From Streptomyces fragilis (GTDB taxonomy: Bacteria; Actinomycetota; Actinomycetes; Streptomycetales; Streptomycetaceae), in assembly GCF_003112515.1 (NCBI RefSeq), contig NZ_BEVZ01000003.1, positions 186,001-250,000 on the forward strand: a stretch of 64,000 nucleotides of DNA, read 5' to 3'. Under the pieces are notes generated by a model that was not told the DNA's origin, ran no database searches, and was given only the letters and a program-made list of their open reading frames with translations. A program made the translations under genes and the position numbers. Position 1 is the first letter of the stretch; each line of letters begins with the position of its first letter. Positions 28,748-43,415 of this stretch are shown here, in pieces.

Positions 28748-30157
28748 ATGTTCCAGAACGCCGACGAGGCCAAGAAGTTCATCGCCGATGAGGACGTCAA
28801 GTTCGTAGACGTTCGCTTCTGCGACCTGCCGGGTGTGATGCAGCACTTCACGATTCCCGCCACGGCGTTCGACCCGGGCGAGGAGCTGGCCTTCGACGGG
28901 TCCTCCATCCGCGGCTTCCAGGCCATCCACGAGTCGGACATGGCCCTGCGCGCCGACCTCAGCACGGCCCGTGTCGACCCCTTCCGCCGGGACAAGACGC
29001 TCAACATCAACTTCTTCATCCACGACCCGATCACCGGTGAGCAGTACTCCCGTGACCCGCGGAACGTGGCGAAGAAGGCCGAGGCCTACCTGGCGTCCAC
29101 CGGCATCGCCGACACCGCCTTCTTCGGTCCCGAGGCCGAGTTCTACGTCTTCGACTCGGTGCGCTTCTCCACCGAGGCGAACCAGGCGTTCTACCACATC
29201 GACTCGGAGGCGGGCGCCTGGAACGCCGGCGCCACCGACAACAACCGTGGTTACAAGGTCAAGTACAAGGGCGGCTACTTCCCGGTGGCCCCGGTCGACC
29301 ACTTCGCCGACCTGCGCGCCGAGATGTCCCTGGAGCTGGCCGCGTCCGGCCTCGAGGTCGAGCGCCAGCACCACGAGGTGGGCACCGCCGGCCAGGCCGA
29401 GATCAACTACAAGTTCAACACGCTGCTGGCCGCGGCCGACGACCTGATGCTGTTCAAGTACATCATCAAGAACGTCGCCTGGCGCAACGGCAAGTCCGCC
29501 ACCTTCATGCCCAAGCCGATCTTCGGTGACAACGGCTCCGGCATGCACGTGCACATGTCGCTGTGGACCGGCGGCCAGCCGCTGTTCTACGACGAGACCG
29601 GCTACGCGGGTCTGTCCGACATGGCCCGCCACTACATCGGCGGCATCCTCAAGCACGCGCCGTCGCTGCTCGCCTTCACCAACCCGACGGTGAACTCCTA
29701 CCACCGCCTGGTGCCCGGCTTCGAGGCCCCGATCAACCTGGTGTACTCGCAGCGCAACCGCTCCGCCGCGATGCGCATCCCGATCACCGGCGCCAACCCG
29801 AAGGCCAAGCGCGTCGAGTTCCGCGCGCCCGACTCCTCCGGCAACCCGTACCTGGCCTTCTCCGCGCTGATGATGGCCGGCCTGGACGGCATCAAGAACA
29901 AGATCGAGCCGGCCGAGCCGATCGACAAGGACCTCTACGAGCTGGCTCCCGAGGAGCACGCCAACGTCGCGCAGGTCCCGACCTCCCTCGGCGCCGTCCT
30001 CGACGCCCTCGAGGCCGACCACGAGTACCTCCTCCAGGGCGACGTCTTCACGCCGGACCTGATCGAGACCTGGATCGACTACAAGCGCACCAACGAGATC
30101 GCCCCGATCGCGCTGCGCCCCCACCCGCACGAGTTCGAGCTGTACTACGACATCTAA
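28748..30157 (+). CDS. glnA: Glutamine synthetase I
   Basis: The 469-residue GSI-beta enzyme makes glutamine from glutamate and ammonium. It has DGSSIRGF near residue 50, the [14 protein letters not shown] active-site block and the adenylylation Tyr397 in DLYELAPEE, so activity is probably controlled by GlnE. AGGAGGAG precedes the ATG by about 6 nt. The last 31 bp (codons for HEFELYYDI and the stop) are the left attachment repeat of the element at 30158-43266. The protein is intact, but the native terminator is now about 13 kb away at 43311-43365. Confidence 0.97.
30127..30157 (+). repeat. attL: attL: left copy of a 31-bp direct repeat
   Basis: The 31 bp at the 3' end of glnA, including its stop codon, recur without mismatch at 43236-43266. 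The bases on both sides differ (C and A here, T and G at the right copy), which sets the limits of the identity. It is the crossover segment used by the integrase at 42440-43198. Confidence 0.95.
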
Positions 30158-30311: not shown

Positions 30312-30722
30312 TTATGGCTGAATCTGAATTCTCGCGCAAACCACCTGATAGTCAATCGTCTTGCCATTCATATCAACCTGAGGGAATACGCCTCTTACGT
30401 TGAAGACCGTATCTGTACCGTCTTCATTCGCATATACGAGTTCCCCGGCCTTGTTCCTTACATTGCCAATCTGGTCATCCAAGTCAGGCCGGAAAGGCAT
30501 GAACAACTGAATCCAACTCTCATTGGAATAACTGCCCTGCTCTTGACGCAAGAACTTTTCAATTGATTGCCACGTTCTCACAGACCCGCCCGTTGCTCTA
30601 ACAGTCCTTGGATTGTCATAGTCCCAATATGATTCAGGAAAGCTACCGGTATCCGGGTCCTGCTCTCCAAGAACGTACTTATAGATGTCCGCGCTAAATT
30701 CATAGCGCTTCATAGCCATCAT
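30312..30722 (-). CDS. Putative head-closure (neck) protein
   Basis: A 136-residue soluble protein of no firm family. It is last in the head operon, right after a connector-type protein, where siphophages carry the head-closure or stopper gene. Its ATG (30722) follows the previous stop (30725-30727) by 2 nt, with GGTGAG as ribosome site; M at 30719 or 30713 is also possible. Composition is mixed alpha/beta (SWIQLFMPFRPDLDDQIGN, VFNVRGVFPQVD). The role is inferred from position only. Confidence 0.5.
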   Translation of the reverse strand: MMAMKRYEFSADIYKYVLGEQDPDTGSFPESYWDYDNPRTVRATGGSVRTWQSIEKFLRQEQGSYSNESWIQLFMPFRPDLDDQIGNVRNKAGELVYANEDGTDTVFNVRGVFPQVDMNGKTIDYQVVCARIQIQP

Positions 30723-30724
30723 TC

Positions 30725-31141
30725 TCACCAGGACCACCACCTATCGTGCATCCAACCGGTTTCACAGTCCTGCCTACGCTGTTCTCTTCGGTAATTGATT
30801 GGCGGGAAGCTAATAAAGCGACTTCTTCGCCATGACACATTGCCGATAGCCTTCTGAGCTAGTGGAGATAGCCAAACAGGCTTATTGCCAATCGTCATCT
30901 TGTCATCACCATGAGAGTAAGACTCTAGATTCGGCTGTTCAAAGACAGACGTTGGGTCATCTTCCATATAGGCGCACTGATAGGCAACTGCCTTACGTAG
31001 CCAAATGACATCCGTTGGGTCTGTTACTAGCTCAATAGGTCTTCCGCTAGCTGTCTCGATGATTGCCTGAGCTTTCTTCAAGGTGGCTAGGTCAACAGAA
31101 ACCCCGGCGATTTCATATACGTCTGAAACTGTTGCGTACAT
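30725..31141 (-). CDS. Putative head-tail adaptor (connector) protein
   Basis: The 138-residue protein begins with YATVSDVYEIAGVSVDLATLKKAQAIIETASGRP, the helical start typical of phage gp6/gp15-type adaptors that bind below the portal ring. The long C-terminal part is basic. It lies 2 nt after the Ig-like protein gene and 2 nt before the head-closure gene, so all three are translationally linked. In a satellite it would give the interface to which a helper tail binds. Confidence 0.65.
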   Translation of the reverse strand: MYATVSDVYEIAGVSVDLATLKKAQAIIETASGRPIELVTDPTDVIWLRKAVAYQCAYMEDDPTSVFEQPNLESYSHGDDKMTIGNKPVWLSPLAQKAIGNVSWRRSRFISFPPINYRREQRRQDCETGWMHDRWWSW

Positions 31142-32286: not shown

Positions 32287-33159
32287 TTAGGCTCCAGCCG
32301 TTACCTCAAGGATTCCGAATGCCTCAGGACGCGCAACAGCGAATCCACGACGGGCACGAACCTTAAGAATCTTTCCGTCACGACGGAACTCATCTCCGAC
32401 AAGAGACTCAGGACCGGAACGAACACCTAGAAGCAGGTGCTGTCGATTACCGACAACAAGCAGCGGATTACCGGTAGGGGCATCCGTGACAGTCGTAGAA
32501 GTCTTGAGACCGTATGAGAAATTCACGTCGAATCCGAACAGAGTTGCAGGAGTAGCGGAAGTACCCTCAACAAAGATTGGATTGCCGTTGTCGTCAAGGA
32601 TTCCACGGAATGCGGCCTTGAATGATGGGTGAGCCATTACAACGGTGTCCGCGTCATTCGCGTAATCCGAACCCTCGTAAAGTGCCAGAGTGTCTGACAG
32701 CTTGGCATAAGTCACCGCACCGGCAGTCGCAATCTTCTGGCCGGAACCAGCAGCCTTGTAAAGGGAAGTGAACGGAACGGTGGTGCCATTCTCGGTACCC
32801 GTGCAAGCAATTGCAGCGTTGTCTAGCTCACGCGCATAAGAGACTGCCCACTCGGCCTGATAAGCCGAGATAACGTTTGCCACAGCGTCCTGTAGGTCTT
32901 CCTCAGCAATGGTGAAGGTCTTACCGAACTTCACCGCGTCAAGGATTACATTGTCTAGGACCGGCTCAGCGTCGGTGTAAAGGTCAGTCTTCTCAACAAC
33001 GTCAACGCCAAAGCGACCCATGCGAGGAACCTTGATGGTGTCCGAACGCATTGTGATTCGACGCGCTACCGCCTCAACGACGGAATTCTGATTGACGCGG
33101 GTAATTACCTCAGAGCCATACTCCTCAGGTACCCAATCGTCTGCATTAACAAAAGCCAT
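32287..33159 (-). CDS. Major capsid protein, HK97 fold
   Basis: The 290-residue protein shows the HK97-type layout: an N-terminal arm, the extended loop region (TDAEPVLDNVILDAVKFGKTFTIAEEDL), the P-domain helix (VANVISAYQAEWAVSYARELDNAA) and the A-domain (VVMAHPSFKAAFRGILDDNGNPIF). It lacks a long N-terminal delta domain, in line with the separate scaffold gene just upstream. It would build the shell of the satellite's own head. Two hairpins lie in the 142-bp gap before it. Confidence 0.85.
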   Translation of the reverse strand: MAFVNADDWVPEEYGSEVITRVNQNSVVEAVARRITMRSDTIKVPRMGRFGVDVVEKTDLYTDAEPVLDNVILDAVKFGKTFTIAEEDLQDAVANVISAYQAEWAVSYARELDNAAIACTGTENGTTVPFTSLYKAAGSGQKIATAGAVTYAKLSDTLALYEGSDYANDADTVVMAHPSFKAAFRGILDDNGNPIFVEGTSATPATLFGFDVNFSYGLKTSTTVTDAPTGNPLLVVGNRQHLLLGVRSGPESLVGDEFRRDGKILKVRARRGFAVARPEAFGILEVTAGA

Positions 33160-33301: not shown

Positions 33302-33697
33302 TTAATTGCCGAAAAGCTGTTCGGCTAGCACATCAGCGGAAGTCTTAGAAGGACGTGCTTCCCGCTTATCTGCGGCGTCCGCTCCACCTGAAATCTTCTT
33401 TGCCTCTCCGAATAGCTCCGGAAGGTCTTCCTTCAAAGTGTCTAGCTGTTCCGTAAGTCCCTCAATCTCTCCGGCCTCCGTCACGCGAAGCTCTGACATA
33501 TTGAGATACTTGGCAACCTTGGGGTTGCTTAGACCAGCCTGAGAGAGTGCCTTTTCGGTTGCTAGGCGTACTGCCACGTTCCGAAATGTGTCCCGCTTCT
33601 CTCGATGCTTTAGAGCCTCCGCATTGGCCTTGTTTAGGGCCGCCTGCATTGCCTCAATGTCGTTTGGTCGTTCCTGGTTTTCCTGGTTGTCCGTCAC
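33302..33697 (-). CDS. Phage scaffolding protein
   Basis: The 131-residue, highly charged, helical protein has a coiled-coil N-terminal part (EAMQAALNKANAEALKHREK), the GP20-like LATEKALSQAGLSNPKVAKYLNM segment and a flexible C-terminus, all typical of small scaffold proteins encoded between portal and capsid. It starts at GTG 33697, overlapping the stop of the 35-residue gene before it (GTGA). No protease domain is visible. Confidence 0.75.
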   Translation of the reverse strand: MTDNQENQERPNDIEAMQAALNKANAEALKHREKRDTFRNVAVRLATEKALSQAGLSNPKVAKYLNMSELRVTEAGEIEGLTEQLDTLKEDLPELFGEAKKISGGADAADKREARPSKTSADVLAEQLFGN

Positions 33698-33801
33698 TTG
33701 TTGATTCCTCCGTCTCGTGAGTTGTAGTTGTGTCGGTTCCTTTGTCTCTTCTCCAGGGCCTCAATCAAGGCCCGGAAGAGTTGGCGAATTTCTTCGGTCA
33801 T
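33694..33801 (-). CDS. 35-residue ORF coupled to portal and scaffold
   Basis: ATG 33801 overlaps the portal stop (ATGA) and its TGA overlaps the scaffold start (GTGA). The peptide (MTEEIRQLFRALIEALEKRQ, then a polar tail) is an amphipathic charged helix. GGAGG inside it serves as the scaffold ribosome site. Double coupling suggests it is translated, if only to carry ribosomes to the scaffold start; a small head-assembly factor is possible. Confidence 0.6.
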   Translation of the reverse strand: MTEEIRQLFRALIEALEKRQRNRHNYNSRDGGINK

Positions 33802-35198
33802 GCCGCCTGTTCGTACGGGTTATCCGGAACCCCCGTCGTGTCCTTAGGCTGCACATTGTGCGATTCTGATTCACCCGGCAGCTCGTTGCCTGCCTGAATC
33901 TGTGCCGATTCCTTCTCAGCCATCCATGTCTTGACTAGAGCCGCGTCATATCCCATTTCTGCGGCGACCTGCTCAAGAGGAATGCCAATCTGAATCTTCT
34001 TATAGGCAATCTCCATTGCCTCCTTAGTGTCGAAAGTCTCTACAGGCTTCCAATGCACCTGTACGTCTTCCTTAAATCCCCCGGCCTTGAGGATGAATGT
34101 AAAGACTTCCCGCCATGTTGACCCAAAGGACAACTGACGATTTCGAACCTTCTTCACTAGTGGTGCCTCTGCCGTTCTAAGGGCTTCACCGGATGGGATA
34201 TTGCCGGTTGGCTCAAAGTAATGCAGTGGCGTTGATGTGGTTGAAGCCATCGCGCGTACATAAGCCTTGAAAGGCTCAAGGAACGTGTTCGGGTCAGCAA
34301 CCTTGAATTGCCCGACTTCCTTGATTCCTTGGAAGATAGCCATTTCGCCAGGGCTGTTGTTGGCACTGATTGACTCATTGCCTGAATCAAAGTCCGCCGA
34401 CTCTGATGAACCCTCAGCAGCAAGGGCGTAACGCTGTGGGAAGCTATGGAAGTCATTGGCAGCCATCTGGCCGACCATGAGCTTATTGATAGCGTCCTGA
34501 GCACCGTAAGCGCCTAGATGCTCTGGCTTGCCCTTTGGCCTCTCCGTCCGGAAATGGAATACCGGAAGTTCTCCTAGGTTGTGCTTCATAACTCCATTGC
34601 TATCCGTGAAATCATCCACGAAAGGAAGGAAGTCAGAATCCTTAGGAGTGTGCGGAAGCTTTTCCGCACGGCTGATGTACTTCTCAATCCTGTCTGAGTA
34701 GTACAGATTGACTCGTGTGCGAGTCTTAACGGCGTTCTTCTCATGGATGCTGATTTCCCACACCTTTGCGGCACAACGCTTTAGGCGGGGGTTTTCCTCA
34801 TCGTAGAGAACAACCGTTGTCTTTGGGGAGTTGTAGTGAACCTGTAGGGTATCGCCCTCAGGCCAAACAATGAGATAGGCGTCACCATAAATAAGGGCTC
34901 TCTTGTGAATCTCCCCGGTCTCTAGGACCAATTCATTAGATGCCCAAACCCTATCGAGATAGCTGCCAGCCTCAGGACTAACGGCAGACACAGAAGCAAT
35001 CTCTAGGCGGTTATTCACCGTATCTACGGGTGTTGCTGCGAAGTTGAGTCGGAAGCGATTGCCCGTCCGGTGCAAAGCACGACTCATAGCCACAGAGGTA
35101 AATACCTCTTCGGCCGTTCCTTCGTAATACTCTTCTGCGGTTGTGTATTCGTTTCTCCTGTCCAGGATTTCGTTAACCGCGATGGTTAGGTCTGTCAT
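33798..35198 (-). CDS. Phage portal protein, SPP1 Gp6-like
   Basis: The 466-residue protein has the SPP1-type portal pattern: YYEGTAEEVFTSVAMSRALHRTGNRFRLNFAATPVD with conserved VDTVNNRLEI, KRALIYGDAYLIVWPEGD in the wing, and the long stem/crown helices (SGEALRTAEAPLVKKVRNRQLSFGSTWREV) towards the C-terminus. It forms the dodecameric DNA gate of the head. The C-terminal tail after residue 430 is Pro/Gln/Glu-rich. It is coupled to the 35-residue gene by ATGA. Confidence 0.85.
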   Translation of the reverse strand: MTDLTIAVNEILDRRNEYTTAEEYYEGTAEEVFTSVAMSRALHRTGNRFRLNFAATPVDTVNNRLEIASVSAVSPEAGSYLDRVWASNELVLETGEIHKRALIYGDAYLIVWPEGDTLQVHYNSPKTTVVLYDEENPRLKRCAAKVWEISIHEKNAVKTRTRVNLYYSDRIEKYISRAEKLPHTPKDSDFLPFVDDFTDSNGVMKHNLGELPVFHFRTERPKGKPEHLGAYGAQDAINKLMVGQMAANDFHSFPQRYALAAEGSSESADFDSGNESISANNSPGEMAIFQGIKEVGQFKVADPNTFLEPFKAYVRAMASTTSTPLHYFEPTGNIPSGEALRTAEAPLVKKVRNRQLSFGSTWREVFTFILKAGGFKEDVQVHWKPVETFDTKEAMEIAYKKIQIGIPLEQVAAEMGYDAALVKTWMAEKESAQIQAGNELPGESESHNVQPKDTTGVPDNPYEQAA

Positions 35199-35317: not shown

Positions 35318-36985
35318 TCAGACGTAGCTCTGAGACTTAATGCTTGGCTGTACTTGAGGCTTTCCAAGGAAGTACAGAACCCCCGAACAAACGGCATCCA
35401 CAACGTCGTCATGGGTGACGCGAGGAAAGGCGTACATCTGTGTTTGCAGGGTGTCAAAGAACCCTGTATGCCAAACCTTGCCCTTCTGGTAGAAGTCAAG
35501 AGCGTGAGTTGCCCTTACCTCTTTCGCTCCGACAGCTCGTTCTAGTCGGAGCTTTGCCGGAATCCCGTCAAAGACAGACTTCCAGACGTCTCCACCCTGG
35601 TTGGACTCAACTAGGACCACCTTGGCCCCGTACGCCTTACAGAGGGTTGTCACAAGGTCCCGTAGCTCAGGGCCAGGGGAAATCTTGTGCTGTTCCGCGT
35701 AACGCACGTAGATGCGTCCGTCGTCCTTGCCGTTCTCATCCAAGCCTCTGGACTCAATGGCAATACCGGTGTAGTCGCTTCGCTTCTTAGTCGTGACAGC
35801 AGGGTCAACAATCAGAAGCGTGTTTCCATAACCCCCGACAGGCTCACCAATGCGAATATCCGTGTCCTGCCAATAGGCAGCATCAAGAGACACAGGGCGA
35901 TTCATTAGGTTCATTGCAAAGCTGCGAGTGTGCCTAATGCTGTTGAGGTAATCCATTGACCAGAACTCAGGCCAAAGGGAGCGTTCCCTATCACCATCCT
36001 TGAGAATGACAGGGAAGTAATGAACCTTGATGTTCTCATCAATGACCCATCTAAGGTCAGGGTCTAGGGCTTCATAGAAATCAGGGTCCGAATTTCTCAA
36101 ATTTTCTGTATTTGAATTGGGTGTAGATATAGGCAAATTCGAATTGAATTCATTAGTACCGCTTTTAAGAACGCCTCCAAAATTGCCAGGAAAATCAATC
36201 GATTCAGATTCCTTCCATTCCCGCTCTTTCTCTTCAACCATTCTCATTTGGTCAATGATGCTGCCGGGCATTGTTGTTGTTCCTGCAAAGCAAACCCGTG
36301 CATAGATGTTCATTGGCAGAATGGCATTGAGAACAGTTCCCCTACGCTTAATTGCCTCATTCTCTGAGTAGTTAGCCTCACCCGGTTCAATGTCATCGAA
36401 CAAGATAAGGTCTGGTCTTTGCTTATTAATCTTTAGGCCAAGGGTCTTTGAATCAGCACCCTTAGCAACAAAGGCAAACCCGTTAGCCTGCCGGATTTGG
36501 TCACGAGACTGAGCAATAGCTGTGTTCTTCCTCTTGCCAAGCAAAGGAGTACACAGGTCAGGGAAGTCCTTGCCTAGTGCTTCATTGGTGTCTAGCTCAT
36601 CCTTAAAGGTCTGTAGGTGTTCCTCTGCCTGTCCTGCTGAGTCAGCAAAGGCAGCAACGAACCTGATGTGTCCGTGAGCCGCACCCCACATAGGCAAGAT
36701 GAGAAAGAGCCACGTACTCTTGCCACCATTTCTAGGGGCAATGAATGCGTCTCTTGATTCTCGTTCCTTAGTGATTGGCTTAGCCCATGTCTTTGCGTAT
36801 TCAGCTAGAGCCAAATGGAATTCACTAAGGGTCATCTCTCCGGTATCACTCGTAACGTGATGAAGCAGATAGATAACCGCAAACAAAAGAGGATTGTTCT
36901 TTGTCTGTCTAATCCTGCCCTCTTGAGTTAGAAGGTCCTGCTTTACCTCCATTGGTAGTGATGCCATGTATTCATAAATCTTCAT
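35318..36985 (-). CDS. Terminase large subunit
   Basis: The 555-residue packaging motor has a Walker A motif (APRNGGKST, Lys89), a Walker B motif (PDLILFDDIE, about residues 190-200) and a C-terminal RNase H-like nuclease beginning LLIVDPAVTTKK near residue 390. It cuts and pumps DNA into the prohead through the portal. Length and motifs are complete. A satellite with its own large terminase packages its own genome instead of redirecting that of the helper. Confidence 0.9.
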   Translation of the reverse strand: MKIYEYMASLPMEVKQDLLTQEGRIRQTKNNPLLFAVIYLLHHVTSDTGEMTLSEFHLALAEYAKTWAKPITKERESRDAFIAPRNGGKSTWLFLILPMWGAAHGHIRFVAAFADSAGQAEEHLQTFKDELDTNEALGKDFPDLCTPLLGKRKNTAIAQSRDQIRQANGFAFVAKGADSKTLGLKINKQRPDLILFDDIEPGEANYSENEAIKRRGTVLNAILPMNIYARVCFAGTTTMPGSIIDQMRMVEEKEREWKESESIDFPGNFGGVLKSGTNEFNSNLPISTPNSNTENLRNSDPDFYEALDPDLRWVIDENIKVHYFPVILKDGDRERSLWPEFWSMDYLNSIRHTRSFAMNLMNRPVSLDAAYWQDTDIRIGEPVGGYGNTLLIVDPAVTTKKRSDYTGIAIESRGLDENGKDDGRIYVRYAEQHKISPGPELRDLVTTLCKAYGAKVVLVESNQGGDVWKSVFDGIPAKLRLERAVGAKEVRATHALDFYQKGKVWHTGFFDTLQTQMYAFPRVTHDDVVDAVCSGVLYFLGKPQVQPSIKSQSYV

Positions 36986-37180: not shown

Positions 37181-37666
37181 TCAGATACCTTCCGGGGCTC
37201 CCAGTCCAGTGACCTTCTGTTCGGCCGCCTGAAACGCCTTGGAAAGGTTCTCGATAGCCTTGTCTGTCTCTGATGGCTGCTCGGTGCCGTTGCGGCTGGT
37301 TGCCTTGCCCTGAATCAGGTTCATTGTCTGAACTGCCTTGTTCACGGCTTCTGCTGTCTTCTTAAGCTCATCACCCGTAATGTCTGGCCTTTCGTTAACA
37401 ATCTCCATTCCTCTATCAATGATGTCTTGCATGGCGATTAGTAGTTCTTCCTCCCGATACCACTGGTTAAAGGCGGAAGACTTCTGCTTTAGTTCGGAAA
37501 GGGCAATCTCTACCCCGAATTCCTTTGACCATGAGTTTGCGGTACTCCAACTGTTTGGATACCCAAGCTCACGCCTTGCCCGGCTATGTCCGATTAGGCT
37601 TGCCTTTTCGAGATATGCGAGCTTTTCCTCTTCTGTGTATTTACGCTGATTCATATTTTTTTGCAT
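37181..37666 (-). CDS. Putative terminase small subunit
   Basis: The 161-residue protein has an N-terminal HTH-like segment (TEEEKLAYLEKASLIGHSRARRELGYPNSWSTANSWSKEFG), a helical oligomerisation region and an acidic C-terminal tail, as in phage small terminases that recognise the packaging site. It lies directly before the large subunit on the same strand, though 195 nt away. ATG 37666 or ATG 37654 may be the start; no strong ribosome site is seen. Confidence 0.65.
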   Translation of the reverse strand: MQKNMNQRKYTEEEKLAYLEKASLIGHSRARRELGYPNSWSTANSWSKEFGVEIALSELKQKSSAFNQWYREEELLIAMQDIIDRGMEIVNERPDITGDELKKTAEAVNKAVQTMNLIQGKATSRNGTEQPSETDKAIENLSKAFQAAEQKVTGLGAPEGI

Positions 37667-39063: not shown

Positions 39064-39900
39064 TCACCATGCGTCAGTATCTACAAGGGTCCTTGTATCC
39101 CTGAGAGGGATAGAAAGCTCTTCAACGTTCTCAGCCGCATACGTGTATCGCATATTGAAGTTGTTTCCCCAAAGGTCGTATTCTTCCTTGGCTGCTTCCT
39201 CTGCTACGGCAAGGATGTAAGCGTAAGGGTGTCCCTTTCGGTAAGTGATTCCATAAGCGGCAACGTTCTTGCTTACCTCTGCAATGTCATCACGCTTAAA
39301 CCAAGCCTCAATGTCTAGCGGCTGGTCTTCCTCAATAGGCATGGTTTCCTCTTCCTTCTGTTCGTCGGTTGCTTCGTGGTCCGTATCGTCAGAGCAAGGC
39401 TGAGAAGGTGTCTCAGTGGCCGTCTGAGCCTCTGTCGTTCCTTCCTGGTCTTCCTGTACCTCTGTTGATTCCTGGGGGCTCTCAGCCTTTACCAGGGAGA
39501 CAGGCTTAACCAAGCCATCCCAATCCCGCTTGATGCCGTGATGAACGCAAGAGGATGAAGCCTTAGCGCTTCTCTGTACGTCGTTGCCATGAAAGACCAG
39601 ACACCTAACGGAAGATTCCTTAGTAAAGAATCCTTCCTCAATGGCAACCTTGATTGCCTTACAAATGGTGTTCTGTGAGGGATACCGAATCTCACCGGTC
39701 TTACGGTCTACGGTTGGTAGAAGGCTTTCTAGCTCACCCGTCGCAAATTCGGCATGACCAATACGGTTCATGCGTGCTTCGGCAAGAAAGACCAGTCGGG
39801 CAAAGAGTGGAAGTCTCATGCTTCCGGCTAGCCTCTGGTTAAATGAATCTGATACAGCGGCCCATCTCTGGTTACCGCCAAAGTTAATGTTGTTCTGCAT
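39064..39900 (-). CDS. Putative replication/regulatory DNA-binding protein
   Basis: The 278-residue protein is first in the leftward operon. Its N-terminal part (FARLVFLAEARMNRIGHAEFATGELESLL ... NTICKAIKVAIEEGFFTKESSVRCLVFHG) is a winged-helix-like domain of the kind seen in replication initiators and phage/ICE regulators. A long acidic linker (about residues 140-195, Glu/Thr-rich) separates it from a C-terminal domain. A 17-bp site like those of the 40.3-kb array lies in its 3' end (39096-39112). A Rep role is suggested by first position and by the repeats, but not shown. ATG 39900 follows AAGGAC. Confidence 0.5.
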   Translation of the reverse strand: MQNNINFGGNQRWAAVSDSFNQRLAGSMRLPLFARLVFLAEARMNRIGHAEFATGELESLLPTVDRKTGEIRYPSQNTICKAIKVAIEEGFFTKESSVRCLVFHGNDVQRSAKASSSCVHHGIKRDWDGLVKPVSLVKAESPQESTEVQEDQEGTTEAQTATETPSQPCSDDTDHEATDEQKEEETMPIEEDQPLDIEAWFKRDDIAEVSKNVAAYGITYRKGHPYAYILAVAEEAAKEEYDLWGNNFNMRYTYAAENVEELSIPLRDTRTLVDTDAW

Positions 39901-40292: not shown

Positions 40293-40367
40293 GGATAGAG
40301 CCATCGTTATATCCCTCAGAGGGATTGGCCGTATCCCTCACAGGGATATATCCCTCAGGAGGATAGA
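40293..40367. repeat. Array of 17-bp palindromic sites (iteron/operator)
   Basis: Sites at 40312-40328, 40334-40350 and 40351-40367 follow TATCCCTCAnAGGGATA, with an extra half-site AGGGATA at 40293-40299 and one further copy at 39096-39112. They lie in the 681-bp gene-free stretch 39901-40581. They could be iterons of a replication origin served by the 39064-39900 protein, or operators of a master repressor. The stretch also holds the leftward promoter and leader terminator. Confidence 0.7.
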
Positions 40368-40581: not shown

Positions 40582-41142
40582 GTGGCCACTCACGCGGTAC
40601 CCGTTGACGCATCCAAGAAGGATGAGCCGGGGGTCAAGGAAGTCACGACGCACATTCCTGGGGTTGGGCCTGTTCAGGCTTACTTCAAGGTGGTCACGAC
40701 TGACGACTACGACGGAAAGACCGAGAAGGACGTAGAGACCTTCCGCTTCTCTTCCCCCATCCTGCTTGAGTCTGAGCAGGAAGTCATTGGGGAAGATGGA
40801 GAGCCGGAAAAGAATGACGACGGTTCTACCAAGCTTGAAGTGGTCAAGCTCTGGAAGACCGTTGCCTATGAAATCGACTTGGGAGAAGGAAGCCGAGACA
40901 AGCTCGTTGCTGCCCTTGCTCCGTTTGTCGAAAAGGCAAGAGAGGTTGCGGCTCCCATCACTGCCACTCCTGTGAGGCAGACGTCTTCCGGCCCTTCTCA
41001 CGATTTGAACGCCATTCGTGAATGGGCCAAGAGTGCCGGGCACGACGTGAAAGACAAGGGCCGAGTTGCCGCTAAGGTGATTGAGGCTTACTACAACAGC
41101 ACGGGTAAGCCCAACCCGGAAAGCACTTCGCGCCTTCTCTAA
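40582..41142 (+). CDS. Lsr2-like nucleoid silencer with an enlarged dimerisation domain
   Basis: The 186-residue protein (GTG 40582, AGGGGG upstream) shows both halves of Lsr2. VVTTDDYDG and DVETFRF (residues 37-56), then VAYEIDLGEGSRDKLVAALAPFV (94-116) match the dimerisation domain, and DLNAIREWAKSAGHDVKDKGRVAAKVIEAY (141-170) matches the AT-minor-groove domain. Residues 57-93 are an acidic insertion absent from ordinary 110-residue Lsr2, and the usual RGR is KGR here. Lsr2 silences AT-rich foreign DNA in actinomycetes; a copy on an AT-rich element may silence the element itself or oppose host Lsr2. A perfect terminator follows. Confidence 0.8.
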   Translation: MATHAVPVDASKKDEPGVKEVTTHIPGVGPVQAYFKVVTTDDYDGKTEKDVETFRFSSPILLESEQEVIGEDGEPEKNDDGSTKLEVVKLWKTVAYEIDLGEGSRDKLVAALAPFVEKAREVAAPITATPVRQTSSGPSHDLNAIREWAKSAGHDVKDKGRVAAKVIEAYYNSTGKPNPESTSRLL

Positions 41143-41208: not shown

Positions 41209-41439
41209 TCATTCGGGGACCTTAACCACAAAGGTTCCCTTGTTGGCCAGGGTCACCACCAGGCCGCGCTCCCGCAGCTCCTGTACGGCCCTTCTGGCCG
41301 TTCCTGGTGCCACGCCGTACTGAGACCCCATGTCCCGCTCGTTCGGCAGTCTCGCGCCGACTGAGAGCCGTCCGGCCCTGATGTCTGCCTCTACGGCGTC
41401 GGCAACGCGCACGTACACGTATCCGATGCTGTCGCTCAT
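41209..41439 (-). CDS. Stand-alone GntR-type winged-helix regulator
   Basis: The 76-residue protein is only the DNA-binding part of GntR regulators: YVRVADAVEADIRAGRLSVGARLPNERDM, then YGVAPGTARRAVQELRERGLV. No effector domain follows, so it is about a third of the usual length. The GC content is host-like, unlike most of the element. ATG 41439 is chosen; the upstream open frame is implausible. It is divergent from the ATPase-like gene and is the only obvious repressor candidate on the element. Confidence 0.75.
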   Translation of the reverse strand: MSDSIGYVYVRVADAVEADIRAGRLSVGARLPNERDMGSQYGVAPGTARRAVQELRERGLVVTLANKGTFVVKVPE

Positions 41440-41495
41440 GGGTTGGACGCTAGGGCGCTGACCAGCACCATGCTTCCCTGGGTGGCTCCATGTGG

Positions 41496-41527
41496 CGCTA
41501 TGGGGTGCCCTGTAGTGGCCTATAGCG
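41496..41527. promoter_or_regulatory. Inverted repeat between divergent GntR and ATPase genes
   Basis: CGCTAT (41496-41501) and ATAGCG (41522-41527) face each other across 20 nt in the 209-bp divergent region. TATAGC-like hexamers occur on both strands. It is a candidate GntR operator. Confidence 0.35.
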
Positions 41528-41648
41528 GTAGCCTCTGAGCTGCACGAACGTAAGCGGCCCGGCAACCGAGCGACCGGCTACCGGGCCTAGTCCACGCTGA
41601 CTAGGAGCGCAGACAGGTGCAGCATATCCAGGCTTTGAGGTGGTTCTA

Positions 41649-42089
41649 GTGACCACCATCGAAAACGGGAACATTCCCGTTCACGAGGTTGCCCGCAAAG
41701 AATGGGGTTGGCATCAGACCCCGGCATCGGTGAAGTTGGCCCGGCGGATTCTCCGTAAGTGGCTGGCTTCTCATCAGGTCAAGTTCTTTGAGGATGAAGC
41801 GCTTCTGTGCTTCTCGGAACTGCTGACCAATGCCATTCGTATTCCGTCGCCGGATGGTTGGACGGATACGGTTTGGTCGCTCTATCCGGATAGGCTCAGG
41901 ATTCAGGTGAAGGACTATTCGCCTGATGCCCCTAAGGTCTGCTATCCGGATGATGAATGCGAATCCGGGCGGGGATTGTCTCTCGTTCATCTCGTGTCGG
42001 ATGACTGGGGATATGAAACCTGCACCTTCCTTGACGGGAAAGGCGGGTATCTCCCCGGAAAGTACGTGTGGTTTGAGTTGAACGGCTAG
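41649..42089 (+). CDS. GHKL ATPase-like regulator (anti-sigma/RsbW type)
   Basis: The 146-residue protein has the N box in LCFSELLTNAIR, a G1-like VKDYSPDAP and a G2-like ESGRGLSLVHLVSDDWGYE, the HATPase_c_2 signature of the many small RsbW-like proteins of Streptomyces. GAGG sits 8 nt before GTG 41649. It may bind a sigma factor or anti-sigma antagonist, or be a regulator acquired from the host. No partner gene (STAS or sigma) is next to it. Confidence 0.8.
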   Translation: MTTIENGNIPVHEVARKEWGWHQTPASVKLARRILRKWLASHQVKFFEDEALLCFSELLTNAIRIPSPDGWTDTVWSLYPDRLRIQVKDYSPDAPKVCYPDDECESGRGLSLVHLVSDDWGYETCTFLDGKGGYLPGKYVWFELNG

Positions 42090-42439: not shown

Positions 42440-43198
42440 TCAGGCGAACCTAGCCATGACTGACTCGATGTCAGCCTCTTGGGTCTGGACGTAGTACCGG
42501 AGCGAGACGGCTACGTCGTGGTGCCGCATCTGCCGCCTCAGGACTTCCGGGGGTGCCCCCAGCTTCACAAGGTTCGTGGCGAACAGGTGACGCAAGGCAT
42601 GGGGGTTCAACTCGATGCCCAATTCTTTCTTGGCCCGTCGCTTTACGCCCCTGTAGACCGTGGCGTGATTGATGGCTCCCAGTTCGTACGTGGCGTACTC
42701 CTCCGCAAACCATTCCGGCACAAAGACAGGGCCGGTGGTCTTAGCGGGGGTGATGTGATTCTGTGGAGTCCTCTGGCGGTCAATGTTGATGACATTGCCC
42801 TTTAGAGTCTGCTTGACCAGAGACTCACCAATCCTCATTCCGGCGAACGTCATGCCGTAGACGTGAGGACGGTATTTCGAATCCGCGAAAGCTTCCCTGA
42901 CTTCCTGCACGGTCGGAAGGTCATAGACCTTTTGCTTCGGTGCAGGAGTAGGCACCTTGATTCCAAGACAGGCTTGGAGATTAACCGCGTGCTTCCTACG
43001 GGTGCTTGCGGTGATGATTCCCGAGAGTCGCCTACTCAGTTCCCGAACGGTTGCTTCCTTGACGGGAAGGTCTTCAATCTCCAAAACCCTGAGAGTCTGG
43101 AGATAAGACCGATAGGTGTTGTCCTTGATTGCCCGCTCTTCCAGCCGCTTATAGGCCAGAGCCAAACAGGTTCCACGCTTAGCCTGTCGAAGTTCCAC
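42440..43198 (-). CDS. int: Tyrosine integrase of the element
   Basis: The 252-residue recombinase starts at GTG 43198. A short SAM-like core-binding part (residues 1-80) is followed by the catalytic domain with Arg122 (GMRIGE), Lys153, His200-x-x-Arg203 (PHALRH), His226/227 and the nucleophile Tyr235 or Tyr236 (LRYYVQ). There is no arm-binding N-terminal domain, so it is shorter than lambda-type integrases. It lies 37 nt from attR. The frame stays open through attR into the chromosome, but those codons are not integrase-like. No excisionase gene was recognised. Confidence 0.9.
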   Translation of the reverse strand: MELRQAKRGTCLALAYKRLEERAIKDNTYRSYLQTLRVLEIEDLPVKEATVRELSRRLSGIITASTRRKHAVNLQACLGIKVPTPAPKQKVYDLPTVQEVREAFADSKYRPHVYGMTFAGMRIGESLVKQTLKGNVINIDRQRTPQNHITPAKTTGPVFVPEWFAEEYATYELGAINHATVYRGVKRRAKKELGIELNPHALRHLFATNLVKLGAPPEVLRRQMRHHDVAVSLRYYVQTQEADIESVMARFA

Positions 43199-43235: not shown

Positions 43236-43266
43236 GCACGAGTTCGAGCTGTACTACGACATCTAA
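43236..43266 (+). repeat. attR: attR: right copy of the 31-bp direct repeat
   Basis: This copy is identical over 31 bp to the end of glnA (30127-30157), including the stop codon, but is not attached to a glutamine synthetase gene. Chromosomal sequence that should follow glnA begins right after it. Confidence 0.95.
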
Positions 43267-43310
43267 GAACCGTGCAGGTCAGAGCCGGTGCGTAGGGCTC
43301 TGGACCGTAA

Positions 43311-43365
43311 CATGACCGTGGGCCGTGTCCTTCCCCTGACGGGAAGGACACGGCCCACGGTCATG
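43311..43365. terminator. Original glnA terminator, displaced by the element
   Basis: A perfect 25-bp stem with loop CTGAC lies 45 nt after attR. In the empty site it would be 45 nt after the glnA stop. It now ends only transcripts coming from the element side and from the convergent peptidase E gene. Confidence 0.9.
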
Positions 43366-43415
43366 TGGGTGACCGCTTGCCGCGCGGTGGCCGTGCCGCC
43401 CCGCGGCCGAGCGGG

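Follow-up and report, generated by a model that had tools for sequence, protein, structure and literature searches.

An Lsr2-like protein with a distinct, conserved dimer module in a MulchRoom-type satellite of Streptomyces fragilis: a candidate self-pairing silencer

We analyzed a window of 64,000 nucleotides from Streptomyces fragilis, in which an integrated element encodes an enlarged Lsr2-like protein; this observation is confirmed. Judged from its sequence and structural models, the protein is a member of the Lsr2 family with a distinct conserved dimer module, carried by a recently described satellite group. With moderate confidence, and drawing on the sequence, the models, and the analogy of a prophage silencer, we favor the reading that it serves as a satellite-owned, self-pairing xenogeneic silencer of a MulchRoom-type satellite.

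The frame proposed in the earlier note does encode an Lsr2-like protein of 186 residues (Table 1). Its GTG start, with AGAAGGGGG just upstream, lines up with the annotated start of gp12 of MulchRoom (OQ784832), a satellite of Streptomyces phage MulchMansion, to which the protein has 57% identity over 99% of its length. Both Lsr2 domains are as clear as that note had them, each scoring above its Pfam cutoff: the dimerization domain (PF11774) at residues 90 to 122 (34.4 bits; cutoff, 29.6), where the match covered only positions 25 to 57 of the 58 in the profile, and the DNA-binding domain (PF23359, Lsr2_DNA-bd) at residues 140 to 171 (42 bits; cutoff, 26.9). In a sequence search of the PDB, the DNA-binding part matches the solved Lsr2 domains 2kng, 6qkp, and 6qkq. 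The host genome encodes two further Lsr2 proteins, Lsr2 and LsrL (G000:C10:130244 and C8:42546), which have the same two domains in the same order but are only 111 and 106 residues long, lack both the N-terminal extension and the insertion described below, keep Asp28 and Arg45, and carry R-G-R in the DNA-binding domain. The calculated pI of the satellite protein is 5.1, against 8.2 for host Lsr2 and 6.8 for LsrL. This acidic pI, an N-terminal extension of about 30 residues, and K-G-R in place of R-G-R are features that the earlier note did not mention.

TABLE 1 Features of the integrated element and of its Lsr2-like protein (positions in the window)
Feature	Position	Strand	Basis
attL, 31-bp core at 3' end of glutamine synthetase gene (PF00120)	30127..30157	+	Perfect direct repeat
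Head-to-tail stopper	30312..30740	-	MulchRoom gp7, 35%
Head-to-tail adaptor	30725..31141	-	MulchRoom gp6, 49%
Major capsid protein	32287..33159	-	PF05065; MulchRoom, 74%
Scaffolding protein	33302..33697	-	phrog_194, PF06810; MulchRoom, 59%
Portal	33798..35198	-	PF05133; MulchRoom, 69%
Terminase large subunit	35318..36985	-	phrog_38, PF17289; MulchRoom, 58-63%
Terminase small subunit	37181..37666	-	MulchRoom, 55%; no PHROGs or Pfam family
Lsr2-like protein gene, 186 aa	40582..41142	+	GTG at 40582, stop ending at 41142; Pfam, MulchRoom gp12 match
N-terminal extension, residues 1-33, ahead of the M. tuberculosis Lys4 equivalent	40582..40680	+	VIA alignment, predicted strands 3-8 and 18-25
Insertion, residues ~59-92, at the Asp28 turn of canonical Lsr2	40756..40857	+	Alignment, span counts, predicted hairpin 52-67/85-100
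Lsr2 DNA-binding domain, residues 140-171, including K159-G160-R161	40999..41094	+	PF23359, 42 bits; PDB 2kng, 6qkp, 6qkq by sequence
GntR-type HTH regulator	41209..41565	-	PF00392; MulchRoom gp11, 84% over 86 aa
Histidine-kinase-like ATPase domain protein	41640..42089	+	PF13581, 35 bits (cutoff, 27.4); phrog_12354 transcriptional regulator; MulchRoom gp10, 46% over 129 aa
Tyrosine integrase	42440..43186	-	PF00589, phrog_1; MulchRoom gp8, 61%
attR, 31-bp core	43236..43266	+	Perfect direct repeat of 30127-30157, spacing 13,109

The gene lies in an AT-rich island (51.0% GC, against 73.4% in the surroundings). The description of this island as an AT-rich satellite that encodes the protein was borne out by its perfect 31-bp att repeats, its composition, and its MulchRoom-matching genes, and by its gene content the 13,109-bp element appears to be an integrated satellite of the MulchRoom type. 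Its size is near the unique length of MulchRoom (13,178 bp, that is, 14,787 minus a terminal repeat of 1,609 bp), and its gene order is the same except for the inverted integrase gene. A packaging and capsid module (TerS, TerL, portal, scaffold, capsid, adaptor, stopper; 35 to 74% to MulchRoom) is joined by a shared lysogeny module (integrase, 61%; GntR, 84%; kinase-like, 46%; Lsr2-like, 58%). Among the element proteins searched with Pfam and PHROGs, several small ones of which matched no family, there was no tail or lysis family, nor was a primase or polymerase family found among the element proteins searched. The MulchRoom gp12 protein shares the N-terminal extension, the insertion, K-G-R, and the neighbors (GntR, kinase-like, and integrase genes; portal, capsid, and terminase); the S. 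fragilis element differs in being integrated, with att repeats at the glutamine synthetase gene, and in its reversed integrase gene. Matches to the att core, mostly of 90 to 97% over 29 to 35 bases and counted whatever the gene, recur in other sampled genomes, and a flank search found no empty attachment site. A perfect 26-nt inverted repeat at 43310-43366, just outside attR, is probably a terminator. An 18-nt palindrome-like repeat has four copies, three clustered at 40308-40364 upstream of the Lsr2-like gene and one at 39094-39111; the cluster was dropped as a set of operators or iterons because four relatives, when examined, lacked the repeat in the region upstream of the gene.

In the MulchRoom description (PMC10690885), gp12 is only annotated, Lsr2 is mentioned once, and the satellite is said not to be directly related to predicted Actinomycetota PICIs. 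The same paper states that homology in bacterial genomes stops at the conserved genes and a match to the integrase, so the integrated form described here, flanked by its two repeats, extends that account. A later description of MulchRoom, or of Lsr2 in phage satellites, was not found in the open literature searched, outside which most subscription papers lie.

The four-gene lysogeny block (Lsr2-like, GntR, kinase-like ATPase, integrase) has a GC content of 56.9%, against 49.5% in the rest of the element; only 3 of 1,311 blocks of the same size on the circular element are equally GC high, and MulchRoom exhibits a similar contrast (55.6% against 49.1 and 50.3%). This is as would be expected if the packaging genes are silencer targets and the lysogeny genes escape silencing, and it may also come from separate origins of the two blocks. 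Insertion-type Lsr2 proteins with the C-terminal domain were found in DNA of 51 to 57% GC in the seven stretches measured (the S. fragilis element, MulchRoom, L074, L075, L010, L011, and L043). A related capsid gene (E ≤ 1e-30) is present in 9 of 394 genomes of the family, including S. fragilis itself; the 19.9 kb taken at each of the other eight capsid-related loci contains no Lsr2, and these stretches are mostly near 70% GC (0.58 to 0.77 per kb). MiniFlayer, a virulent sister satellite that is more AT-rich (46.7% GC) and has no annotated integrase, gave no Lsr2 match, which argues that being AT-rich does not oblige a satellite to encode an anti-silencer of its own; this argument is weakened by the Lsr2-DNA-binding protein of its helper, which might supply such a function.

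The earlier note placed a 37-residue acidic insertion at residues 57 to 93, in the middle of the dimerization domain. The insertion is real, acidic (net charge, -6 over residues 57 to 93), and located in that domain, but it extends over about residues 59 to 92, and the extra stretch amounts to 33 to 35 residues. The span that starts at the Asp-Asp motif and ends at the Leu of xIDL measures 60 residues in the 186-residue protein. This span is bimodal among the 73 proteins measured: it is 42 to 60 in 34 proteins and 25 to 35 in 39, host Lsr2 and LsrL included, with none between, the 39 insertion-less proteins being those returned by the searches and not a random sample. The insertion is not a chance event, because it recurs in MulchRoom gp12 and in relatives from viral contigs, genomes, and a prophage. 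It is not a general phage trait in our sample either: the eight phage and two plasmid Lsr2 proteins examined (drawn from 395 phage and 179 plasmid records that matched) have 105 to 122 residues and spans of 25 to 35, the Lsr2 of Microbacterium phage Magritte, with a span of 35, representing a smaller enlargement. The N-terminal extension adds about 30 residues to those that precede the first core strand in Lsr2 itself. It is common to the 11 family members aligned, and the first position of the VIA alignment pairs residue 4 of the 4e1p chain with residue 34 of the model.

An AlphaFold model of the single chain, built with 17 aligned sequences, has a mean pLDDT of 85.9 and a pTM of 0.47, a low value that perhaps comes from two domains not fixed against each other. 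It consists of five β-strands (residues 3 to 8, 18 to 25, 29 to 40, 52 to 67, and 85 to 100) followed by a helix (102 to 118). The mean pLDDT within the insertion is 94 (61 to 70), 95 (71 to 80), and 95 (81 to 90), and these values, over an extended hairpin, led us to reject a loose acidic loop; the insertion is instead predicted to be an ordered β-hairpin on the Lsr2 dimer core, accompanied by the N-terminal β extension. In the VIA comparison, all 56 residues of the M. tuberculosis dimerization domain (4e1p_B) align with model residues 34 to 123 at 2.2 Å and 36% identity (Z = 4.4); since these 90 model residues hold the 56 of 4e1p_B, 34 are extra. This entry tied for the top row with the Lsr2 DNA-binding domain 2kng, and rows other than Lsr2 had Z values of 2.0 to 2.9. 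A Z value below 8 alone may reflect a common arrangement, and because 4.4 is modest, it is the sequence match that carries the claim of a core fold. Foldseek gave no match against the PDB at E ≤ 0.001; its Lsr2 rows (4e1p, 6qkq, and 2kng) had probabilities of 0.93 to 1.00, and RNA-phage coat proteins, first by E value, were set aside at TM scores under 0.25. Among viral models, the best Foldseek match was a Gordonia phage Lsr2-like protein (E = 3.2e-4). A model of L049, a relative without the DNA-binding domain, has the same strand order at a mean pLDDT of 70.1, its alignment overlapping that of the first model.

The enlarged module is not common in chromosomal Lsr2 paralogues: host Lsr2 and LsrL are without it, and in the order it was matched at E ≤ 1e-6 in 16 of 391 genomes, at 24 places, with part of each genome's candidates scored. 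Eight of the matching genomes have two insertion-family proteins. The near relatives include L074 and the IMG/VR contig L075, which probably represents a third satellite (portal, 88% to MulchRoom). A further near relative, L043 (G170:C1:2240034-2259576), sits in an apparent siphoviral prophage with tail and lysis genes, so its function need not be satellite specific; the Lsr2-like, kinase-like, and GntR genes that this prophage has in common with the satellite suggest exchange of a lysogeny module between the two. More distant relatives with a capsid module are L004 from Streptomyces prunicolor (the same stretch as L011 in IMG/VR) and L010. A variant C-terminal part of LTEW/LAEW type, below the Pfam Lsr2_DNA-bd cutoff, was seen in L004:8938-9525, L045:9244-9858, L047:9391-9936, and L044:5239-5739. 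Of 10 other insertion-family proteins scanned with Pfam, 2 (L043 and L075) reach the PF11774 cutoff, 7 match below it, and 1 does not match.

The family also includes many shorter proteins: 24 of its 34 distinct members end early and have no DNA-binding motif, and in the two of these scanned with Pfam, no DNA-binding domain was found. They have about 133 to 150 residues and a basic tail (L046:9495-9899, L048:9511-9915, L049:9408-9806, and L052-L073). At two of the short-protein loci, the neighbors belong to ordinary chromosomal families (collagenase, dehydrogenase), others matching none, and L046 lies in DNA of 64 to 67% GC. Some insertion-family proteins are thus found in ordinary high-GC chromosome, and AT-rich elements are not the only place in which the enlarged module occurs.

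In the solved Lsr2 dimer, Asp28 and Arg45 from opposite chains form a bridge (PMC3374832). When the equivalents are placed by counting from Leu36 of that paper, the Arg45 position is Val109 in the satellite protein, and the insertion replaces the Asp28 turn. Arginine is found at the Arg45 position in none of the 34 insertion-family proteins, against 22 of the 39 others, 21 of which also have Asp28 (host Lsr2 and LsrL keep both). Arg45 is likewise missing in the remaining 17 of the 39, so its loss is no proof of a changed partner. Within the insertion, D80-G81 is nearly invariant, and MAFFT sets Asp28-Gly29 against it; by this alignment, its aspartate may still reach the partner or serve for the Asp28 turn. 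Since Arg45 is replaced by valine and the Asp28 turn by the insertion, a dimer with host Lsr2 would be expected to lose at least one bridge, at least on the Arg45 side, and insulation from the host protein would therefore be favored over its poisoning. Linear chains of M. tuberculosis Lsr2 grow end to end after removal of residues 1 to 3 (PMC3374832). The strand that forms chains would have to end freely for such growth, and here the extension leaves 33 residues at that place. It is therefore likely that the partner or the filament is changed.

In the DNA-binding domain, R-G-R, which we take to be the minor-groove motif of the Lsr2 family, is found in all 29 of the insertion-less Lsr2 proteins that are not from phages or plasmids. 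The 186-residue protein, MulchRoom gp12, and four of the other eight insertion-family proteins with the C-terminal part have K-G-R, as do two Gordonia phage Lsr2 proteins; R-G-R is kept in the relative L074 and, by eye, in L004. Binding to AT-rich DNA may be weaker with K-G-R than with R-G-R; the domain otherwise looks intact. The engineered dominant negative of Streptomyces Lsr2 is R82A, which has lost DNA binding (PMC6584129). We located R82 by counting residues in the host copy, and the matching arginine is kept in the satellite protein as R146.

These observations bear on the suggestion of the earlier note that an altered dimerization domain turns the protein into a dominant antagonist, which would join host Lsr2 oligomers, cap or distort them, and so free the AT-rich satellite genes. 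The altered domain stands, and together with the N-terminal extension it could end chains, given that chain growth needs residues 1 to 3 removed (PMC3374832). Changed oligomerization is also the proposed means of H-NST and of truncated CgpS; antagonism by N-terminal fragments is described for both CgpS and H-NS, and H-NST and truncated CgpS are without a DNA-binding domain (PMC7074111). The satellite protein has such a domain, so it is not of the truncated type, and relatives without one, the short insertion-family proteins, are the better candidates for natural Lsr2 antagonists. The kept domain with R146, the lost Arg45, the position of the gene among lysogeny genes (integrase and GntR), and its absence from the virulent, more AT-rich MiniFlayer, qualified as it is by the Lsr2-DNA-binding protein of that satellite's helper, all tell against antagonism, which we consider improbable and less likely than a satellite-owned, self-pairing silencer.

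A cooperating silencer, forming mixed filaments with host Lsr2 and thereby strengthening silencing of the element, would draw on the core fold shared with Lsr2 and on the one contact that D80-G81 could keep; the loss of Arg45, and an extension and insertion that have no counterpart in the host proteins, leave this decidedly improbable. There is about as little to be said for a DNA-organizing protein used in satellite replication or packaging and not in silencing: nucleoid-type proteins can presumably serve in DNA handling and the searched proteins lack a primase or polymerase family, but the gene is placed with the GntR, kinase-like, and integrase genes, of the same composition, in both the element and MulchRoom, and MiniFlayer, for which replication and packaging are just as necessary, does not have it.

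The self-pairing silencer that we prefer has a functional analog in CgpS of Corynebacterium glutamicum prophage CGP3, a prophage-encoded Lsr2-type silencer of its own element (PMC7002338 and PMC7074111), the likeness being one of described function. After integration, the satellite protein would coat the AT-rich packaging genes and help to silence them, as CgpS does for CGP3. Owing to the hairpin and the changed Asp28-Arg45 contact, its partner would be another copy of itself and not host Lsr2, and end-to-end chain growth of the kind described for the M. tuberculosis protein would be blocked or altered by the N-terminal extension. Silencing of the satellite would then be set by its own protein and could be released separately on arrival of a helper.

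Helper phages MulchMansion and MindFlayer each have the Lsr2 DNA-binding domain twice, once near either genome end, as found by searching the whole records; by the lengths in Table 1 of the satellite paper, these genes lie inside the terminal repeats. They are annotated as Lsr2-like DNA bridging proteins (MT897905, 4089-4610, L128; MW291014, 3522-4034, L127), and Pfam gives their products the DNA-binding domain and no Lsr2 dimerization domain. Because DNA binding without a bridging domain is the design that we would expect of an anti-silencer, the helper proteins are better candidates for that role than the satellite protein; no experiment on them was found in the literature searched (titles and abstract openings). 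One could go further and propose a silencer/anti-silencer pair, in which MulchMansion gp7 or MindFlayer gp6 would displace both the self-pairing satellite Lsr2 and host Lsr2 from AT-rich DNA and so switch the satellite on, the insertion having evolved to keep silencing by the satellite separate from that by the host; as a whole, we think this speculative and unlikely.

Neither silencing in the MulchRoom group in Streptomyces nor sensing of the helper is described in the literature that we found. What the S. fragilis element adds to that group is a relative in integrated form, flanked by both att repeats, and a candidate silencer whose dimer module is predicted to be distinct; the known helpers provide a candidate inducer. 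As a natural example of possible insulation from host Lsr2, the protein bears on the coexistence of several silencers in one cell.
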